Shown here: one piece after another, positions 21,943 through 30,273 of the stretch
Layout: every line of letters begins with the position of its first letter
How positions within the stretch are numbered: position 1 is the first letter of the stretch
Assembly: GCF_036327775.1 (NCBI RefSeq)
Contig: NZ_CP109598.1
Location: 5,902,001-5,966,000, forward strand
Source of the DNA: Streptomyces sp. NBC_01498
GTDB taxonomy: Bacteria > Actinomycetota > Actinomycetes > Streptomycetales > Streptomycetaceae
Length of the DNA stretch: 64,000 nt
Direction: 5' to 3'
The notes under the pieces: model-generated
Databases searched by the model: none
Told to the model about the DNA's origin: nothing
The model's input: the letters and a program-made list of their open reading frames with translations, nothing else
Made by a program: the position numbers and the translations under genes

Positions 21943-23244
21943 ATGCCGCCGACCGACGACCCGACAGCCCGCTCGCCCCGCCGTGCGCTGGGACGCGGGC
22001 CGGGAACGGGCGGCGCGCCGCCGGAACACCCACCGGCGACGGAGCCGGTCCCGATTCCGGTCCCGGTGCCGCCGCCGGTCGTGGAGCACGGGCCCGAGCC
22101 CGAACCTGAGACCGGGCCGCCGGGGGCCGCACCCGCACCCGCCGCCGAGCTTGAGCCCGTCCCCGTACGGGAGCCGGAACCCGTACGCGCACTTGTACCG
22201 GAGCCGGAACCCGTACGCGCACTCGTACCGGAGCCCGCCGCCGAGCCGGAGCCCGTACGCCTGCCCGAGCCCGAGCCCGCACCGGACGCCACGTCCGAGC
22301 CCGCGCCCGCACCGGACGCGATGCCCGCTCCCGCGCCGGTGCCCGAGGCCGCCGCCGGGACCGAGGCCGACGACGGGCGCTTCACCGTGCGGCTCGCGAA
22401 CTTCGAGGGGCCCTTCGATCTGCTCCTCCAGCTGATCTCGAAGCACAAGATGGACGTCACCGAGGTCGCGCTCTCCAAGGTCACCGACGAGTTCATGGCG
22501 CACATCCACGCCATGGGGCCGGACTGGGACCTCGACCAGACCACCGAGTTCCTGGTCGTCGCCGCGACGCTCCTCGACCTCAAGGCCGCCCGGCTGCTGC
22601 CGTCCGCCGAGGTGGAGGACGAGGGCGACCTGGCGCTGCTGGAGGCCCGGGACCTGCTCTTCGCCCGGCTCCTCCAGTACCGCGCGTACAAGCGGATCGC
22701 CGAGATCCTCAGCGACCGGCTGGACTCCGAGTCCCGGCGGTACCCCCGTACCGTCGGCCTCGAACCGCACCACGCCGCCCTGCTGCCCGAGGTCGTCATC
22801 AGCATCGGCGCCGAGGGGTTCGCCCGGCTCGCGGTCAAGGCGATGCAGCCCCGGCCCAAACCGCAGGTGTACGTCGACCACATCCACGCGCCGCTCGTCT
22901 CCGTCCAGGAGCAGGCGGGGATCGTGGTGGCGCTGCTGCGGGCGGCCGGCGAGGTCGATTTCCGGACGCTGGCCGAGGGCGCCCCGGACACGCTCACCGT
23001 CGTCGCGCGCTTCCTCGCCCTGCTGGAGCTCTATCGCGAGAAGGCCGTCGCCCTGGACCAGGACGAGGCCCTGGGGACGCTCATGGTGCGCTGGACGGGC
23101 GGGGACGACGACGCGGCGCCGAGGGTGACGGACGAGTTCGACCGCCCGCCCGACCCCGTGACGAACGACACGAAGGACCCGAAGGACCCGACGACCGCGC
23201 GGCAGCCCGCCGGCCCGGGGAAGACGAGTGAGGAGATGGTGTGA
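21943..23244 (+). CDS. scpA: Segregation and condensation protein A
   Basis: Kleisin subunit of the bacterial SMC condensin, bridging SMC heads with ScpB. The 433-residue protein has a 140-residue N-terminal extension of Pro/Glu/Val repeats (EPEPVRALVPEPEPVRALVP region) not found in short ScpA proteins. The kleisin core starts at FTVRLANFEGPFDLLLQLI, continues with KHKMDVTEVALSKVTDEF and LVVAATLLDLKAARLLP, and ends in a winged helix (VVARFLALLELYREKAVAL). A disordered acidic tail closes it. ATG 21943 has AGGA 5 bases upstream. The stop overlaps scpB by 4 bases (GTGA). Confidence 0.95.
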   Translation: MPPTDDPTARSPRRALGRGPGTGGAPPEHPPATEPVPIPVPVPPPVVEHGPEPEPETGPPGAAPAPAAELEPVPVREPEPVRALVPEPEPVRALVPEPAAEPEPVRLPEPEPAPDATSEPAPAPDAMPAPAPVPEAAAGTEADDGRFTVRLANFEGPFDLLLQLISKHKMDVTEVALSKVTDEFMAHIHAMGPDWDLDQTTEFLVVAATLLDLKAARLLPSAEVEDEGDLALLEARDLLFARLLQYRAYKRIAEILSDRLDSESRRYPRTVGLEPHHAALLPEVVISIGAEGFARLAVKAMQPRPKPQVYVDHIHAPLVSVQEQAGIVVALLRAAGEVDFRTLAEGAPDTLTVVARFLALLELYREKAVALDQDEALGTLMVRWTGGDDDAAPRVTDEFDRPPDPVTNDTKDPKDPTTARQPAGPGKTSEEMV

Positions 23245-25136: not shown

Positions 25137-25186
25137 TTGTGGTGAGCGCCCGTTCCCCTTTATAGTCAACCTGACCATTAAGGAGG
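25137..25186 (+). promoter_or_regulatory. pnuC promoter with overlapping palindrome (candidate NrtR operator)
   Basis: A -35-like TTGTGG (25137-25142), an 18-base spacer and a good -10 TATAGT (25161-25166) are followed by the ribosome site AAGGAGG (25180-25186) and GTG 25192, so the leader would be only about 20 bases. ATAGTCAACCTGACCAT (25162-25178) is a 17-bp dyad with one mismatch in 7-base arms and covers the -10 and start point. The fourth-to-last open frame of the operon is an NrtR-like regulator, so autoregulation by NrtR is the natural hypothesis. Confidence 0.6.
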
Positions 25187-25191
25187 CGGGC

Positions 25192-25845
25192 GTGGGCCTC
25201 GCGGATTTCCTGGACCCTCTTCAGCAGCCCCTGCTGACCGTGCTCGACACCCCGGTGAGCTGGACCGAGGTGCTCGGCTTCGGCAGCGGCGCGCTCTGCG
25301 TCTGGCTCGTCGCCCGTCAGCACCTGGCCAACTGGCCGATCGGCATCGCCAACAACCTCTTCTTCATCCTGCTGTTCGTCCCGGCCGGCCTGTACGCCGA
25401 CGCCGGGTTGCAGGTCGTCTTCATCGCCCTCGCCCTGTACGGCTGGTGGACCTGGACCCACGGGGGTGGACCAGGCTCCTCCTCACTCCCGGTGCGGCGC
25501 ACCTCGCGCACCGAGTGGGGCCGGCTGCTCGCGGCGGGGGCGGTGGGGACCCTCGGACTGACCCTGCTGCTCGACCACCGGACATCGTCCACCGTGCCGT
25601 TCTGGGACGCGGTGACCACCGCGCTCTCGCTGATGGCGACCTACGGGCAGTGCCGGAAGCGGCTGGAGTCGTGGTGGCTGTGGATCGCGGCCGACCTCGT
25701 CTACATCCCGCTCTACGCGCACAAGGACCTCTATCTGACGTCGATCCTGTACGCCGGCTTCCTGACCCTGTGCGTCGTCGGACTGCGCAACTGGTCGCGC
25801 GACCTGACCGGCCGGACCTCCGCCCCGCTGGAGGTGGCGGCATGA
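25192..25845 (+). CDS. pnuC: PnuC-type nicotinamide riboside transporter
   Basis: Facilitates nicotinamide riboside uptake across the cytoplasmic membrane; trapping depends on phosphorylation inside. The 217-residue protein has about seven hydrophobic segments and the PnuC signatures WPIGIANNLFF, VVFIALALYGWWTW, and the C-terminal WWLWIAADLVYIPLYAHKDL followed by the last helix. GTG 25192 follows AAGGAGG by 5 bases; an upstream in-frame ATG at 25111 lies before the promoter and was rejected. The stop overlaps the nadR ATG (ATGA). Its partner kinase should be the next gene. Confidence 0.93.
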   Translation: MGLADFLDPLQQPLLTVLDTPVSWTEVLGFGSGALCVWLVARQHLANWPIGIANNLFFILLFVPAGLYADAGLQVVFIALALYGWWTWTHGGGPGSSSLPVRRTSRTEWGRLLAAGAVGTLGLTLLLDHRTSSTVPFWDAVTTALSLMATYGQCRKRLESWWLWIAADLVYIPLYAHKDLYLTSILYAGFLTLCVVGLRNWSRDLTGRTSAPLEVAA

Positions 25846-26924
25846 CCGGCGGGTACGAACACGGCCTGGTCCTCGGCAAGTTCTACCCGCCGCACGCGGG
25901 CCACCACCATCTCGTACGGACCGCCCGGGAGCGCTGCGAACGTCTCACCGTCCTCGTCTGCGCCGCCTCCGTGGAATCCGTGCCGCTCGCCGACCGCGTC
26001 GCCTGGATGCGCGAGATCCACCCGGACGTACGCGTCGTCGGCGCCGTCGACGACACCCGCATGGACCTTCACGACCCCGCCGTCTGGGACGCGCACATGG
26101 CCGTCTTCCGGACGGCCGTCCCCGAACGGGTGGACGCCGTCTTCACCTCGGAGTCGTACGGGGACGAACTCGCCCGCCGCTTCGGCGCCGTGTCCGTCAC
26201 CGTGGACCCGGAGCGCCTGCGCCACCCGGTCTCCGGGACGGCCGTCCGCGCGGACCCGGCCGGCTGCTGGGAGTTCCTCGCCCCGCCCGTCCGGGCCGCG
26301 CTCGCCCGGCGGGTCGTGGTGCTCGGCGCCGAGTCCACCGGCACCACCACCCTCGCGCGGGCGCTCGCCCGGCACTACCGGGCGCGCGGCGGAGTCTGGT
26401 CCGGGACACGCTGGGTCCCCGAGTACGGACGGGAGTTCAGCGAGCACAAGCTGGCGGAGCTGCGCGCGCGCCATCCCGGCGCGCGCTGGGAGGACGTCGA
26501 ATTCACCACCGGCGACTTCCCGTTGATCGCCGGACGGCAGAACGAGGCGGAGGAGCGGGCCGCCCGCGCCGGCTCACCCGTCCTGATCTGCGACACCGAC
26601 TCCTTCGCCACCACCGTCTGGCACGAGCGCTACGTGGGTGGCCGCAACCCGCTGGTCGAGGAGATCGCCGACCGGGTGCCGCACCAGCTGTGGCTGCTCA
26701 CCGGCCACGAGGGCGTGCCCTTCGAGGACGACGGGCTGCGGGACGGCGAGGAACTGCGGCCCTGGATGACCGACCGCTTCCGGGACGAACTCACCCGCAC
26801 GGGGCGGCCGTTCGTCGCCCTGGAGGGGCCGCACGAGAAACGGCTGGCGGACGCGGTGGCCGCCGTGGACGCCCTGCTGGACCGGGGCTGGCACTTCGCC
26901 CCGCCCCTCCCGGAGAACCGATGA
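25842..26924 (+). CDS. nadR: NadR-like NMN adenylyltransferase / nicotinamide riboside kinase
   Basis: Would convert nicotinamide riboside to NMN and NMN to NAD in the cytosol. The 360-residue protein lacks the helix-turn-helix of enteric NadR. The adenylyltransferase half has LGKFYPPHAGHHHLV (11-25; GxFxPxHxGH type) and HPVSGTAVR (129-137; ISGTxxR type). The kinase half starts near residue 158 with VVLGAESTGTTTLARAL. In that P-loop the lysine position is Thr168, so a standard Walker A lysine is missing; the rest of the kinase (CDTDSFATTVWHERY, VPHQLWLLTGHEGVPFEDDG) is well kept. It starts inside the pnuC stop and overlaps the nrtR start by 4 bases. Confidence 0.88.
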   Translation: MTGGYEHGLVLGKFYPPHAGHHHLVRTARERCERLTVLVCAASVESVPLADRVAWMREIHPDVRVVGAVDDTRMDLHDPAVWDAHMAVFRTAVPERVDAVFTSESYGDELARRFGAVSVTVDPERLRHPVSGTAVRADPAGCWEFLAPPVRAALARRVVVLGAESTGTTTLARALARHYRARGGVWSGTRWVPEYGREFSEHKLAELRARHPGARWEDVEFTTGDFPLIAGRQNEAEERAARAGSPVLICDTDSFATTVWHERYVGGRNPLVEEIADRVPHQLWLLTGHEGVPFEDDGLRDGEELRPWMTDRFRDELTRTGRPFVALEGPHEKRLADAVAAVDALLDRGWHFAPPLPENR

Positions 26925-27688
26925 GCGCGCCCCCGCCGGCCCCGCGCCCCCGCGTGCCCGAGGACTACGACCCGGCCGACTTCGAGCCGTTCGCCGTCAC
27001 CGTCGACCTCGCCGTCTTCACCGTCCGCGAGAGCAGCCTGCACGTCCTGCTGGTCGAACGCGGTGAGGAACCCTACCGGGGTCACTGGGCGCTGCCCGGC
27101 GGCTTCGTACGGCCCCGCGAGTCCGCCGGGCAGGCGGCCCGCCGCGAACTCGCCGAGGAGACCGGCCTGTCGCCGGAGACCGCCGCCGGGTTGCGGCCCG
27201 AGCAACTGCGCACGTACAGCGACCCGGACCGGGACCCCCGGATGCGCGTCGTGTCCGTCGCGTACACCGCGCTGCTGCCCGACCTCCCCGAACCGCGCGG
27301 CGGAGGCGACGCCGCGCGGGCCCGCTGGACCCGCTACGACGGCCTCCGCGACCTCGGCCCGCTGGCCTTCGACCACGGCCGGATCCTCGCCGACGGCCGG
27401 GACCGGATCGGCGCCAAGCTCGAATACACCTGCCTGGCCACGGCGTTCTGCCCCCCCGAGTTCACCCTCGGGGAGCTTCAGCAGGTGTACGAGACGGTCT
27501 GGGGTGTCGCGCTGGACCGGCCCAACTTCCGCCGCAAGGTGCTCGGTTCACCCGGATTCGTCGAACCGGTGGACGGCCCGCCGCGCCGCACCGGCGGCCG
27601 GGGCAAACCGGCCGCCCTGCACCGCGCGGGCACCGCCACCGCGCTCCACCCGCCCCTGCTGCGACCGGAAGGACGGACCACCCCATGA
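26921..27688 (+). CDS. nrtR: NrtR-like Nudix-domain transcriptional regulator
   Basis: Predicted ADP-ribose-sensing repressor of NAD metabolism genes. The 255-residue protein has an N-terminal Nudix domain (TVDLAVFTVRESSLHVLLV; Nudix box from Gly61 to Leu83) and a C-terminal winged-helix region (FTLGELQQVYETVWGVALD, then RPNFRRKVLG) that is diagnostic for NrtR. Unlike many family members, which have lost the catalytic pattern, the box here fits GX5EX7REUXEEXGU completely, so some hydrolase activity may remain. Start and stop both overlap neighbours by 4 bases. The palindrome at the pnuC promoter is the likely target. A plain Nudix hydrolase is the alternative, but the C-terminal domain argues against it. 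Confidence 0.85.
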   Translation: MSAPPPAPRPRVPEDYDPADFEPFAVTVDLAVFTVRESSLHVLLVERGEEPYRGHWALPGGFVRPRESAGQAARRELAEETGLSPETAAGLRPEQLRTYSDPDRDPRMRVVSVAYTALLPDLPEPRGGGDAARARWTRYDGLRDLGPLAFDHGRILADGRDRIGAKLEYTCLATAFCPPEFTLGELQQVYETVWGVALDRPNFRRKVLGSPGFVEPVDGPPRRTGGRGKPAALHRAGTATALHPPLLRPEGRTTP

Positions 27689-28707
27689 CCCCGAAGGACC
27701 CGGCCCGCAAACGAGCGGCCACCGGCGCCCTGACCGGGCTCGCGCTCGGCGACGCCCTCGGCTTCCCCACCGAGTTCAACGACGTGCCCGCCATCCTCGC
27801 GAAGTGCGGCCCCTGGCGGGAGATGAACCTGCCGGAGCCCGCGTTCGTCAGCGACGACACACAGCTGACACTCGCACTCGGCCGGGGGCTGCGCACCGCG
27901 ATGGCCCGGGGCCCGCTCGCAGCACCGGGTCTGGCCCCGACGGTGCGCGAGGAGTTCGTGGACTGGTACCACCACCCGGACAACAACCGCGCCCCCGGCG
28001 CGACCTGTCTGGCGGCCTGTGAACTCCTCGACGGCGACCGGCCCTGGCAGCGGGCGAGCCGGATCGGCTCCAAGGGCTGCGGCGCCAACATGCGGGTCGC
28101 GCCCGTCGGCCTCGCACCCGGTCTCAGCCCCGAACAGCGGTCCGGCGCCGCCCAGTTGCAGGCCGCCCTCACCCACGGCCACCCGACCGCCCTCGCCGCC
28201 TCCGACCTCACGGCCCACGCCGTGGGGCTGCTGGCCCGTGGCACCGAACCCCTCGGCCTGGTGGGGCTGTTGCGCTCGTACGCGTACGACAACCGCTCCC
28301 GCTACCGTCACGACTGGCTCGGCGACCTGTGGACCCACAGCCAGGACCCGACCCCCGAACACTTCGCCGAACGGGGCTGGGACGAATGCCTCGCCGTCCT
28401 CGAACGGCTCCGGCGCGCCCTCGCCCACCCGTCCCCCGAGACCGACCCCTGCCTGGCCACCGGCGACGGCTGGATCGCCGAGGAGGCGTTCGCCACCGGA
28501 CTGCACTGCTTCCTGCTCTTCCCCGAGGAGCCCCTCACGGCCCTGCGCCGGGCCGCCTGCACCAAGGGCGACTCCGACTCGATCGCCTGCCTCACGGGCG
28601 CGTTCGCGGGCGCGCACCTCGGCGCGGACGCCTGGCCCGCGGAGTGGACGGACCGGATCGAGTACCGCGAGGAGCTGCTGGAACTGGGTGCGCTCTGGGA
28701 CGCTTGA
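27685..28707 (+). CDS. ADP-ribosylglycohydrolase (ARH/DraG family)
   Basis: Removes ADP-ribose from proteins or nucleic acids, or hydrolyses related ADP-ribosides, using two Mg ions. The 340-residue cytosolic protein has ALTGLALGDALGFPTEF, the metal-binding SDDTQLTLAL, and near the C-terminus KGDSDSIACLTGAFAGA, matching the GD(S/T)D(S/T) ARH motif. The middle IGSKGCGANMRVAPVGL is also typical. The ATG overlaps the nrtR stop (ATGA), making it the fourth gene of a coupled operon. Its presence ties NAD supply to ADP-ribose turnover; the substrate could be mono-ADP-ribosyl protein, modified DNA or RNA ends. Confidence 0.9.
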   Translation: MTPKDPARKRAATGALTGLALGDALGFPTEFNDVPAILAKCGPWREMNLPEPAFVSDDTQLTLALGRGLRTAMARGPLAAPGLAPTVREEFVDWYHHPDNNRAPGATCLAACELLDGDRPWQRASRIGSKGCGANMRVAPVGLAPGLSPEQRSGAAQLQAALTHGHPTALAASDLTAHAVGLLARGTEPLGLVGLLRSYAYDNRSRYRHDWLGDLWTHSQDPTPEHFAERGWDECLAVLERLRRALAHPSPETDPCLATGDGWIAEEAFATGLHCFLLFPEEPLTALRRAACTKGDSDSIACLTGAFAGAHLGADAWPAEWTDRIEYREELLELGALWDA

Positions 28708-28710
28708 TCC

Positions 28711-29604
28711 ATGCGAATGGATGACGAACACCCCGCGTCCGACGGCCCGTTCGGCCTCTCACCCGACGAACCGCCCGCGCGGGACGAGCCCGGCGGGCCG
28801 CCGGCCACGGACGGAACTGCCGGGCCCTCCGGGTGGGCGGAGCGCCTGGAGCGGGCCGGGCTGCCGACGACCGACCTCGGCCCGGCCCTCGCCGAGGAGG
28901 CCGACCCGCTGCTCTTCGCCACCGTCTCCGGCGCCCACCTGTACGGATTCCCCTCCACCGACTCCGACGTCGACCTGCGCGGCGCGCACCTGCTGCCGGT
29001 GACCGAACTCATCGGCCTGCACGAGCCCGACGAGACCCGCTCCCGGACGTGGGACCGCGACGGCGTCGAGATGGACCTGGTCAGCCACGACCTGCGGAAG
29101 TTCGTCCGCATGATGATGCGGCGCAACGGCTATGTCCTGGAGCAGCTGCACTCGCCGCTGGTCGTGCACTCCACCGAGGCGCACCGCGAACTCCTCGCCC
29201 TCGCCCCCGGCGTCCTCACCGGCCACCACGCCCACCACTACCGGGGATTCGCCGCCACCCAGTGGCGGCTGTTCGAGAAGACCGGTGAACTCAAGCCGCT
29301 GCTCTACACGTTCCGGGCGCTGCTGACCGGCGTCCACCTGATGCGCAGCGGCGAGGTGCAGGCCCATCTGCCCACCCTGCTCGCCGAGGTGAGCGCGCCC
29401 GACTATCTGCCCGAGCTGATCGAGGCGAAGGCCGAGGCCGAACACGGCGCGGCGACGGGCCTCGCCCCCGCCCGCCTCCAGAGCGACGTGGACGCCCTCC
29501 ACGAGGTCCTGGCGGAGGCCCGGAACCGCACCCGGCTACCCGACTCCCCGGCCGGGTACGAGGCGCTGCACGACCTGGTCGTCCGCACCCGTCTGGAGCG
29601 CTGA
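28711..29604 (+). CDS. Pol-beta-superfamily nucleotidyltransferase (RlaP/YcgL-like)
   Basis: A 297-residue predicted nucleotidyltransferase. After a 60-residue disordered acidic start, the catalytic motif is FATVSGAHLYGFPSTDSDVD (GS-type loop with two Asp), then EMDLVSHDLRKFVRMMMRRN and LEQLHSPLVV, typical of the family I know as COG3541/PF10127, proposed for RNA repair. The C-terminal half is helical. ATG 28711 starts 3 bases after the ARH stop, so it is the fifth gene of the operon; ribosome site weak. Its 3' end overlaps a minus-strand paralogue by 69 bases. The substrate is unknown. Confidence 0.82.
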   Translation: MRMDDEHPASDGPFGLSPDEPPARDEPGGPPATDGTAGPSGWAERLERAGLPTTDLGPALAEEADPLLFATVSGAHLYGFPSTDSDVDLRGAHLLPVTELIGLHEPDETRSRTWDRDGVEMDLVSHDLRKFVRMMMRRNGYVLEQLHSPLVVHSTEAHRELLALAPGVLTGHHAHHYRGFAATQWRLFEKTGELKPLLYTFRALLTGVHLMRSGEVQAHLPTLLAEVSAPDYLPELIEAKAEAEHGAATGLAPARLQSDVDALHEVLAEARNRTRLPDSPAGYEALHDLVVRTRLER

Positions 29605-30273
29605 CGCCCGCCGTACGCGGATCACGAAGTCCTCCACCCGCGCCCGGTCCGGCTCGGCGGGCAGCGGGGAGCCGGCGAGCGCGGCGTCCGCCTCCTCACC
29701 GAGCCGGTTCATCCGCCGCGCCACCTCCGCCCACGGCACCTCGCCGCGCTTCACCGCCAGCAGCGGCTCGCGCCCGGCGCCCGCGTCGATCACCAGCCGT
29801 CCCGTACGCAGCAGATCACGGCAGGCGGCGAGCAGCCGCAGCAGATGCATGGCGTGCTTCCAGCGGGGCGCGCCGTGCTGCCGGACGTCCGCCTCCAGTT
29901 TCCTCCGCCGGCCGATCGCGTAGCGCACGAACGTCCCGTGGGCCGCACGGGAGAGGAACGCGTCGCGCAGGGCGAGGAGTTCACGGCCGGTGTCGTCCAC
30001 GTACTCGACCAGCGGCGAGTGCAGACATTCGAGGACATTGGGATTGCTGCGCAGCGCCAGCAGACAGAACCGTTCCAGTTCCCAGGAGAACTGCTCCTCG
30101 GCCGGCCCGTCGACATGGGCCGGGGGCTTCTCGAAGGCCCAGAAGAGCGGGGTGGGCGCCCGGAACACCCCCCGGCGGTCGGTGTCGCTGTCCTCGGTCG
30201 CCAGGCCGAACGCGCGGGAGCCCATGACGCACGCGTAGACGGTGTGGTCGCGAACGAGCTCCTCGGGTGTCAT
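29536..30273 (-). CDS. Second Pol-beta-superfamily nucleotidyltransferase (paralogue)
   Basis: A 245-residue paralogue of the gene at 28711: YACVMGSRAFGLATEDSDTD carries the same G-S-x-D-x-D catalytic arrangement, and VLECLHSPLVEYVDDTGREL aligns with VLEQLHSPLVVHSTEAHREL of the neighbour. It lacks the disordered N-terminus. The end of the frame (stop at 29538) lies inside the 3' end of the plus-strand gene. Start ATG 30273 was chosen because MTPEELV begins a natural helix; a GTG at 30279 is possible. Only 169 bases separate its start from aroH on the other strand. A role in RNA end repair or tRNA-like nucleotide addition is inference from family. Confidence 0.82.
   Translation of the reverse strand: MTPEELVRDHTVYACVMGSRAFGLATEDSDTDRRGVFRAPTPLFWAFEKPPAHVDGPAEEQFSWELERFCLLALRSNPNVLECLHSPLVEYVDDTGRELLALRDAFLSRAAHGTFVRYAIGRRRKLEADVRQHGAPRWKHAMHLLRLLAACRDLLRTGRLVIDAGAGREPLLAVKRGEVPWAEVARRMNRLGEEADAALAGSPLPAEPDRARVEDFVIRVRRASALQTGADDQVVQRLVPGRGVG

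Follow-up and report, generated by a model that had tools for sequence, protein, structure and literature searches.

We analysed a 64,000-nucleotide stretch of the Streptomyces sp. NBC_01498 genome (assembly GCF_036327775.1, NZ_CP109598.1, positions 5,902,001-5,966,000; hereafter the window). Six genes at positions 25137..30273 of this window bring together salvage of nicotinamide adenine dinucleotide (NAD), an ADP-ribosylglycohydrolase (ARH) and two nucleotidyltransferases of the RlaP family, which we call NT1 and NT2. NT1 and NT2 are probably RNA-repair enzymes that came to adjoin ARH in Streptomyces, because the pair is encoded near Pnkp and/or Hen1 in some relatives, because RlaP and Pnkp co-occur across genomes and because this genome carries Hen1-Pnkp as well. 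The connection with RNA repair is well supported, and a functional one with ADP-ribose removal is possible. In the fuller form of the repair reading, which we consider fairly probable, an old NT2-NT1 pair would serve Hen1-Pnkp repair, and NT1 would have joined an ARH operon under the ADP-ribose-responsive regulator NrtR.

The NT2-NT1 pair and Hen1-Pnkp

An earlier reading of the same DNA (the original prediction) had assigned both nucleotidyltransferases to the RlaP family, and the Pfam profile PF10127 (gathering score 23) confirmed this for NT1 (28711..29604, forward strand; 7e-50, 170.5 bits) and for NT2 (29536..30273, reverse strand; 3.5e-30, 106 bits). For comparison we used named NT1 loci, the best 80 of at least 563 matches to a Streptosporangiaceae query and thus biased to that family. 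They comprised 10 Streptomyces and 70 non-Streptomyces loci; about 6 kb of flank was examined, and 7 of the 70 were shortened by contig ends. Outside Streptomyces, NT2 was located directly upstream of NT1 in 56 of the 70 loci, and 35 of these adjacent pairs overlapped by 4 nt. NT2 was found elsewhere within the flank in 5 loci, was not seen in 8 and was cut by the contig end in 1.

Pnkp was detected within about 6 kb of NT1 in 6 of the 70 loci (five genera) and Hen1 in 5 of these, calls that are based on clustering with two Pfam-scanned proteins of locus L159. The order Hen1-Pnkp-NT2-NT1 was observed in Microtetraspora sp., Microtetraspora fusca, Kutzneria and Bailinhaonella, with tight spacing in M. 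fusca and Kutzneria and one extra gene in Bailinhaonella. In Actinomadura sp. DC4, Pnkp is encoded downstream on the opposite strand with one gene between, and in Actinocorallia upstream with several genes between. Besides these six loci, Pnkp is found about 3 kb from NT2 in Thermomonospora. Three Deinococcus plasmids carry the pair next to Hen1: D. ficus (Hen1-NT2-NT1-unknown-Pnkp), D. gobiensis (Hen1-NT2-NT1-Pnkp) and D. taeanensis (Hen1-NT2-NT1). According to BLAST and a quick tree, a type of tree in which many branches are weak, their nucleotidyltransferases fall in the NT2 and NT1 clades, both of which are starred. The RNA-ligase genes that the original prediction had anticipated near the nucleotidyltransferases of relatives were therefore found, in the form of Hen1-Pnkp, beside some orthologues. 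A Gordonia phage relative of RlaP also adjoins an RNA ligase. For the phages Satis and Kikimora and for a Miltoncostaea plasmid no RNA ligase was annotated within 5 kb, and the neighbours of the best RlaP match in genome G103 (aconitase, ABC transporter) were uninformative.

Two other genes at such loci may be recorded. The D. ficus plasmid (L240, 6442-7155) encodes a 237-aa protein without Pfam match between NT1 and Pnkp, and in Planomonospora the NT2-NT1 pair has a gene for a class I lysyl-tRNA synthetase (L055, 6123-7811) 170 bp upstream.

RlaP and Pnkp also occur together at the genome level. In 246 genomes of the class both were present in 55, RlaP only in 12, Pnkp only in 15 and neither in 164 (odds ratio 50). 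When the genus of the window (g1) was left out, the corresponding numbers were 36/12/15/161 (odds ratio 32). In the same order, we counted 196/5/5/14 for 220 genomes of the family and 63/1/3/9 for its 76 g1 genomes. A sub-threshold Pnkp in G430 was scored absent and a sub-threshold RlaP in G026 present. The names given to the groups (g1, Streptomyces; g7, Actinacidiphila; g11, Peterkaempfera and relatives; f17, mainly Streptosporangiaceae) are our own inference. When PnuC was compared with RlaP in the same way, the counts were 38/29/65/114 with g1 (odds ratio 2.3, p 0.006) and 19/29/62/114 without it (odds ratio 1.2, p 0.61), and this candidate association, weak in the first case and missing in the second, was dropped. 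The genome of the window encodes Hen1-Pnkp near 1.40 Mb (L228), where the two genes overlap by 4 nt and the proteins share 57.7% and 62.6% identity with those of Microtetraspora, and it encodes one KptA/Tpt1.

A possible second junction of repair and NAD genes was rejected. In G166 (L247, 6676-13147) Hen1-Pnkp is followed by pnuC-nadR-nrtR, which at first suggested an independent join. However, Pnkp and pnuC are separated by a palindromic box core, and the NAD genes therefore probably form a transcription unit of their own. Of 12 genomes from the same genus, only 1 had a pnuC of this type.

Inspection of the NT sequences revealed invariant residues in NT1 (G74, D86, D88, D122) and in NT2 (G18, S19, D30, D32, E60). 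As aligned by eye, both proteins keep three carboxylates (D86, D88 and D122; D30, D32 and E60) and both are therefore probably active. Pol-beta motif patterns were found in 104 of 116 NT1 and 97 of 104 NT2 called genes longer than 200 aa. Other Pol-beta-fold enzymes modify proteins or small molecules, and NT1 and NT2 might likewise act on such a non-RNA target. The best Foldseek matches of the NT1 model, none of which was significant, were aminoglycoside nucleotidyltransferases (E 0.06 and 0.09), and single-sequence searches yielded no related solved structure; both results would fit a non-RNA target. However, in two phyla the pair is part of Hen1-Pnkp operons or close to them, a phage relative sits beside an RNA ligase and RlaP co-occurs with Pnkp, so that we regard a non-RNA target as distinctly unlikely.

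ARH and NT1 in Streptomyces

In the window pnuC, nadR, nrtR, ARH and NT1 follow each other on the forward strand and NT2 converges on NT1 from the reverse strand. The coordinates agree with the original prediction as to the 4-nt overlaps (pnuC/nadR 25842-25845, nadR/nrtR 26921-26924, nrtR/ARH 27685-27688), the 3 nt between the end of the ARH stop (28707) and the start of NT1 (28711), and the tail-to-tail position of the paralogue NT2. In addition, the 3' ends of NT1 and NT2 overlap by 69 bp; overlaps of 69-75 bp were also seen in L032, L044, L046, L047 and L118, and gaps or smaller overlaps in other loci. The ARH/DraG-type enzyme (27685..28707, forward strand) matches PF03747 ADP_ribosyl_GH (2.3e-60) and has DraG and ARH3 as relatives in the Protein Data Bank. 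Its metal-binding motifs DDT and GD[ST]D[ST] were conserved in 38 of 38 locus ARH sequences. The salvage part consists of pnuC (25192..25845, forward strand; nicotinamide riboside transporter, PF04973 NMN_transporter, 8.5e-58) and nadR (25842..26924, forward strand; nicotinamide mononucleotide adenylyltransferase and ribosylnicotinamide kinase, PF13521 AAA_28 and PF01467 CTP_transf_like), whose product matches TIGR01526 below the cut-off (194 of 341 bits). NT1 comprises 297 residues, compared with 246-280 in most listed relatives, and its N-terminus is poorly conserved, so that the true NT1 start may be located further downstream than 28711. Gene calls come from a home-made codon-score script, which makes starts, small genes and gap values approximate.

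In the family survey (220 genomes, 76 of them g1) the nucleotidyltransferases were sorted into NT1, NT2 and a different RlaP, NT3, by hand from E-values. Among the 76 g1 genomes, NT1 was full-length in 22 and fragmentary in 3, and ARH adjoins the full-length gene in 21 of these (all but G416). When any ARH in the genome at E <= 1e-50 was counted rather than the locus ARH alone, 24 g1 genomes had NT1 and ARH, 1 had NT1 only, 39 had ARH only and 12 had neither (p 0.05 by plain counting). As to nadR, 12 of the 25 NT1-bearing g1 genomes (3 with fragments) carry it anywhere and 10 carry it at the locus according to coordinates. NAD supply is therefore an optional part of the locus. At the search threshold 64 g1 genomes bear RlaP: NT1/NT2 in 46, NT3 in 17, both in none and a degraded copy in 1. 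Sequences were checked for 7 of the 17 NT3 genomes and for the doubtful G366, G376, G396 and G442. NT3 is represented by the loci L072-L074 and L256-L259, two NT3 proteins group in the tree with a Streptomyces phage RlaP, and the pattern looks like a replacement within one function. Independently of this, nadR homologues with one in-frame TGA each were noted in two family genomes (G298:C152:80044-81159 and G054:C107:357574-358680).

Nine of the 10 named Streptomyces loci have the order ARH-NT1 and S. smaragdinus has NT2-NT1. In contrast, tblastn with the window proteins found ARH, nrtR, nadR or pnuC within about 6 kb of NT1 in none of the 70 non-Streptomyces loci. A conserved ARH-RlaP-NadR linkage across actinobacteria, the lack of which would by the original prediction speak against its reading, was thus not observed. 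Its overall interpretation stands as far as the RlaP family and the RNA-ligase neighbours are concerned and fails for this linkage outside Streptomyces. NAD supply, ADP-ribose removal and nucleotide addition might still be parts of one damage-response module, for example for ADP-ribosylated or NAD-derived RNA ends as the original prediction suggested.

The neighbourhood leaves room for a rival explanation. An insertion-tolerant rsuA-aroH interval may have gathered ARH, NT1, NT2 and the NAD genes, which would share a promoter while NT1 and ARH do separate jobs; to this hitch-hiking we give somewhat less than an even chance. The interval is variable and relatives carry unrelated genes there (sigma factor, MFS, DUF72, Rieske, DUF952). 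The Peterkaempfera-type genomes G025 and G011 have an ARH but no NT genes at the locus and carry the NT pair at another site. The lack of ARH near NT1 in the 70 non-Streptomyces loci points the same way, as does the locus tree, on which gains and losses of NT1 and ARH were not joint. On a tree of 49 loci, which were picked for carrying NT or ARH so that genomes with neither are under-sampled, co-change of NT1 and ARH received no support: averaged over 5 pairs, which are too few for significance, 0.3 changed the same way, 0.7 the opposite way and 4.0 showed no difference. NT1 and NT2 lean to joint change on the same tree, a comparison that is underpowered.

Close coupling of ARH and NT1 in two gene orders argues against hitch-hiking. 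In 9 of the 10 named Streptomyces loci, ARH and NT1 are separated by 3-4 nt. High-scoring NT1 genes were found in 17 g7 genomes, and 10 of these show the reversed order NT1-ARH with a 4-nt overlap in 7; the other 7 have no full ARH at the locus, with a remnant kept in G021. This argument is weakened by four g1 loci with wider gaps (L049, 23 nt; L044, 99 nt; L046, 166 nt; L043, 203 nt), two of which have a truncated NT1. In a quick ARH tree, 15 g1 locus ARHs formed one starred clade, L107 was placed outside, the g7 locus ARHs were nearby and most ARHs from elsewhere in the genomes were apart. ARH and NT1 may have been joined in one event or in two.

A working link between ADP-ribose removal by ARH and NT1 is possible, judging by analogy with S. 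coelicolor. From its number alone we presume that SCO1766 is the locus ARH. SCO1766 has been listed among uncharacterised DraG homologues (PMC5087735, PMC9411070). In vitro, RNA phosphate ends are freed of ADP-ribose by the ARH-like SCO5809, and the KptA-like SCO3953 can place ADP-ribose on an RNA 5' end; the same paper calls the physiology of RNA-phosphate ADP-ribosylation unexplored (PMC11833690). The chemistry for joint action is thus present in the genus Streptomyces, as far as proteins other than the locus ARH are concerned.

Promoter, palindrome and NrtR

Upstream of pnuC, we predict from the sequence a promoter-like element on the forward strand (25137..25166) with a -35 TTGTGG at 25137-25142, an 18-bp spacer and a -10 TATAGT at 25161-25166. 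The original prediction had the first gene begin at 25137, which lies within the -35-like hexamer and this start could not be maintained. GTG 25192 follows AAGGAGG (25180-25186), a codon-score gene caller picked the same position, and relatives such as L034 and L109 have an equivalent start 3' of the same box. It is likely that pnuC starts at 25192 and that 25137 is the TTG of TTGTGG.

A 23-bp palindrome, TTTATAGTCAACCTGACCATTAA, covers the -10 (25159..25181, forward strand) and is predicted to be the operator of NrtR, the Nudix-type regulator encoded at 26921..27688 on the forward strand (PF00293 NUDIX; PF21906 NrtR_WHD, winged helix). The palindrome or a variant was present 5' of the first gene or of nrtR in 13 of 13 other nrtR-bearing loci compared. 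At <=3 mismatches it occurs once in the whole genome of the window and was found in 16 of 20 chosen genomes, 15 of which had a single site; a reversed control pattern gave no match in the same 20. G360 has an extra weak site, the G029 match is at a pnuC-nadR-nrtR elsewhere in the genome, and G214 has a weak palindrome at the locus in the absence of a called nrtR. In the four genomes without palindrome (G416, G055, G317, G336) no nrtR was seen at the locus. A looser core, GTC-N5-GAC, was located <=150 bp 5' of 11 of 12 other pnuC operons, a count without shuffled control that shares G029 and G048 with the palindrome set. Where nrtR is absent, the core pattern detected no box 5' of NT1 in 13 loci. 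The Nudix box is intact in the window and in 22 of 22 NrtR sequences longer than 200 aa, a few of which come from the same or near-identical genomes. On this basis the palindrome is probably the NrtR operator and NrtR probably controls the operon.

Two observations on NrtR are added for completeness. In G048 (L116; C29:38389-38411) pnuC-nadR is far from the nrtR-ARH locus and yet has a palindrome variant with 3 mismatches, which suggests control by NrtR in trans. Judging by its number alone, sco1767 may be the nrtR of this locus. In PMC6637917, a change in topoisomerase levels was accompanied by upregulation of sco1767, there called a DNA hydrolase, together with dnaE2, dinP and uvrA and, in one table, with recA and lexA.

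The regulator also bears on a reading as an anti-ADP-ribosylation defence system, in which ARH would free host molecules of ADP-ribose, NrtR would sense it and the nucleotidyltransferase would serve as effector or as a second arm of repair. Systems centred on ARG genes and equipped with Nudix-HTH regulators are described for actinobacteria (PMC9503650), and a 4-nt overlap of nrtR with ARH is seen in the window and recurs in 12 of 13 other loci. Still, only the six locus genes lie between rsuA and aroH in the window, and none of the ten neighbour proteins scanned in relatives was a phosphatase, chaperone, Macro, NADAR or REase. The housekeeping flanks and pnuC-nadR would point to NAD balance, and we consider the defence reading unlikely. 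These flanks are scpA-scpB-rsuA on one side and aroH-tyrA-cmk-plsC-der on the other; aroH and tyrA were confirmed by Pfam, and the names scpA, scpB, rsuA, cmk, plsC and der are tentative. The scpA frame opens with a long proline-/glutamate-rich repeat-like segment (21943-22340), which may precede the true scpA start. RNA ligase, 2H and kinase genes were neither found in the Streptomyces island of the window nor among the ten neighbour proteins scanned in relatives.

Proposed mechanism

For the RNA-repair reading with NT1 under NrtR we propose the following sequence of events. According to a published prediction, RlaP restores nucleotides ahead of ligation (PMC7824862), and NT2/NT1 would most likely do so at broken (t)RNA ends. 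Pnkp would then heal and seal the ends and Hen1 would methylate the junction. Pnkp and Hen1 genes are described as always sharing an operon, and their repair leaves a methylated junction that resists re-cleavage (PMC4411300). In Streptomyces the pair would operate from the rsuA-aroH interval, with NT1 as last gene of an operon with ARH that is preceded by nrtR in many strains and in some also by pnuC-nadR. NrtR would sit on the palindrome over the -10 and leave when ADP-ribose accumulates, which would couple the production of NT1 to NAD consumption. For the M. smegmatis protein, release from DNA by 50 mM ADP-ribose has been reported (PMC6800001).

Several of our observations weigh against this proposal. 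Pnkp was not found within the flank in 64 of the 70 non-Streptomyces loci, and in the window genome Hen1-Pnkp has no NT genes alongside and is located about 4.5 Mb from NT1/NT2. The odds ratios of 50 and 32 come from Fisher tests that count genomes as independent and ignore phylogeny, and of the 246 genomes 12 have RlaP without Pnkp and 15 Pnkp without RlaP. KptA, present in 26 of 34 g1 genomes, also tracks RlaP within the genus (22 of 22 genomes with RlaP, 4 of 12 without), and loss of many genes in reduced genomes may therefore add to the co-occurrence. No NrtR box was seen for NT2 in the window, and 39 of the 63 ARH-bearing g1 genomes lack NT1. The AlphaFold models (pLDDT 65 for NT1, 68 for NT2) render the catalytic core poorly, and to our knowledge no RlaP activity has been measured.

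All parts might even be linked into one co-regulated Streptomyces pathway. Here, KptA/Tpt1 or toxins would cap RNA phosphate ends with ADP-ribose, ARH would uncap them, NT1 and NT2 would restore the end and Hen1-Pnkp would seal and methylate it; the freed ADP-ribose would lift NrtR repression and PnuC-NadR would refill NAD. We rate this extended scheme as rather unlikely. If true, an ADP-ribosylhydrolase would have been coupled to the repair of nucleic-acid ends twice and independently, here and in the D. radiodurans PARG operon. Apart from this scheme, RlaP gains a testable partner in Hen1-Pnkp and a conserved two-enzyme form. Streptomyces becomes a place to ask if NAD consumption, acting through NrtR, turns on part of RNA repair, and the operon is a candidate physiological setting for the attachment of ADP-ribose to RNA phosphates and its removal by an ARH-like enzyme.

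Comparison with known systems

Known kinds of system include RlaP with RNA ligases, Hen1-Pnkp, NAD genes controlled by NrtR, and ARG with Nudix regulators. For the ARH-RlaP operon, the NT2-NT1 pair and its NrtR box we found no description in the open-licence literature searched; the founding papers on RlaP and on NrtR regulons, which are outside it, may cover parts. NT1 and NT2 belong to the same Pfam family as the RlaP of RNA-repair systems, and some orthologues or relatives adjoin RNA-ligase systems. In contrast to those systems, two diverged paralogues are kept here as an NT2-NT1 pair, which in Streptomyces is apart from the ligase and has NT1 beside ARH. As for Hen1-Pnkp, the NT pair is in or near that operon in three Deinococcus plasmids and several actinobacteria, whereas the two are separate loci in the window genome.

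Known NrtR operons likewise combine a Nudix and winged-helix regulator with a palindromic box before NAD genes, and the box length of 23 bp is that of mycobacteria (PMC6800001). The half-sites differ, being TTTATAGTC-N5-GACTATTAA here and GTTTTCGA-N7-TCGAAAAC in mycobacteria, and our operon carries salvage genes and is extended by ARH and RlaP, whereas the mycobacterial NrtR operons carry de novo genes. The Nudix box is intact here, whereas the M. smegmatis NrtR has lost its hydrolase activity (PMC6800001). With ARG-centred conflict systems (PMC9503650) the locus shares the combination of ARG with a Nudix or WYL regulator, seen here as ARH with nrtR; the accessory phosphatase, chaperone or other genes that are frequent there, although not obligatory, were absent from the rsuA-aroH interval of the window and from the ten neighbours scanned in relatives. 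A further parallel comes from D. radiodurans, in which the genes for PARG, a ligase and a kinase-phosphatase form a putative operon (PMC11833690). There, too, an ADP-ribosylhydrolase is in an operon with RNA/DNA end-repair enzymes, as a macrodomain-type PARG with ligase and kinase, whereas here an ARH is joined to RlaP.

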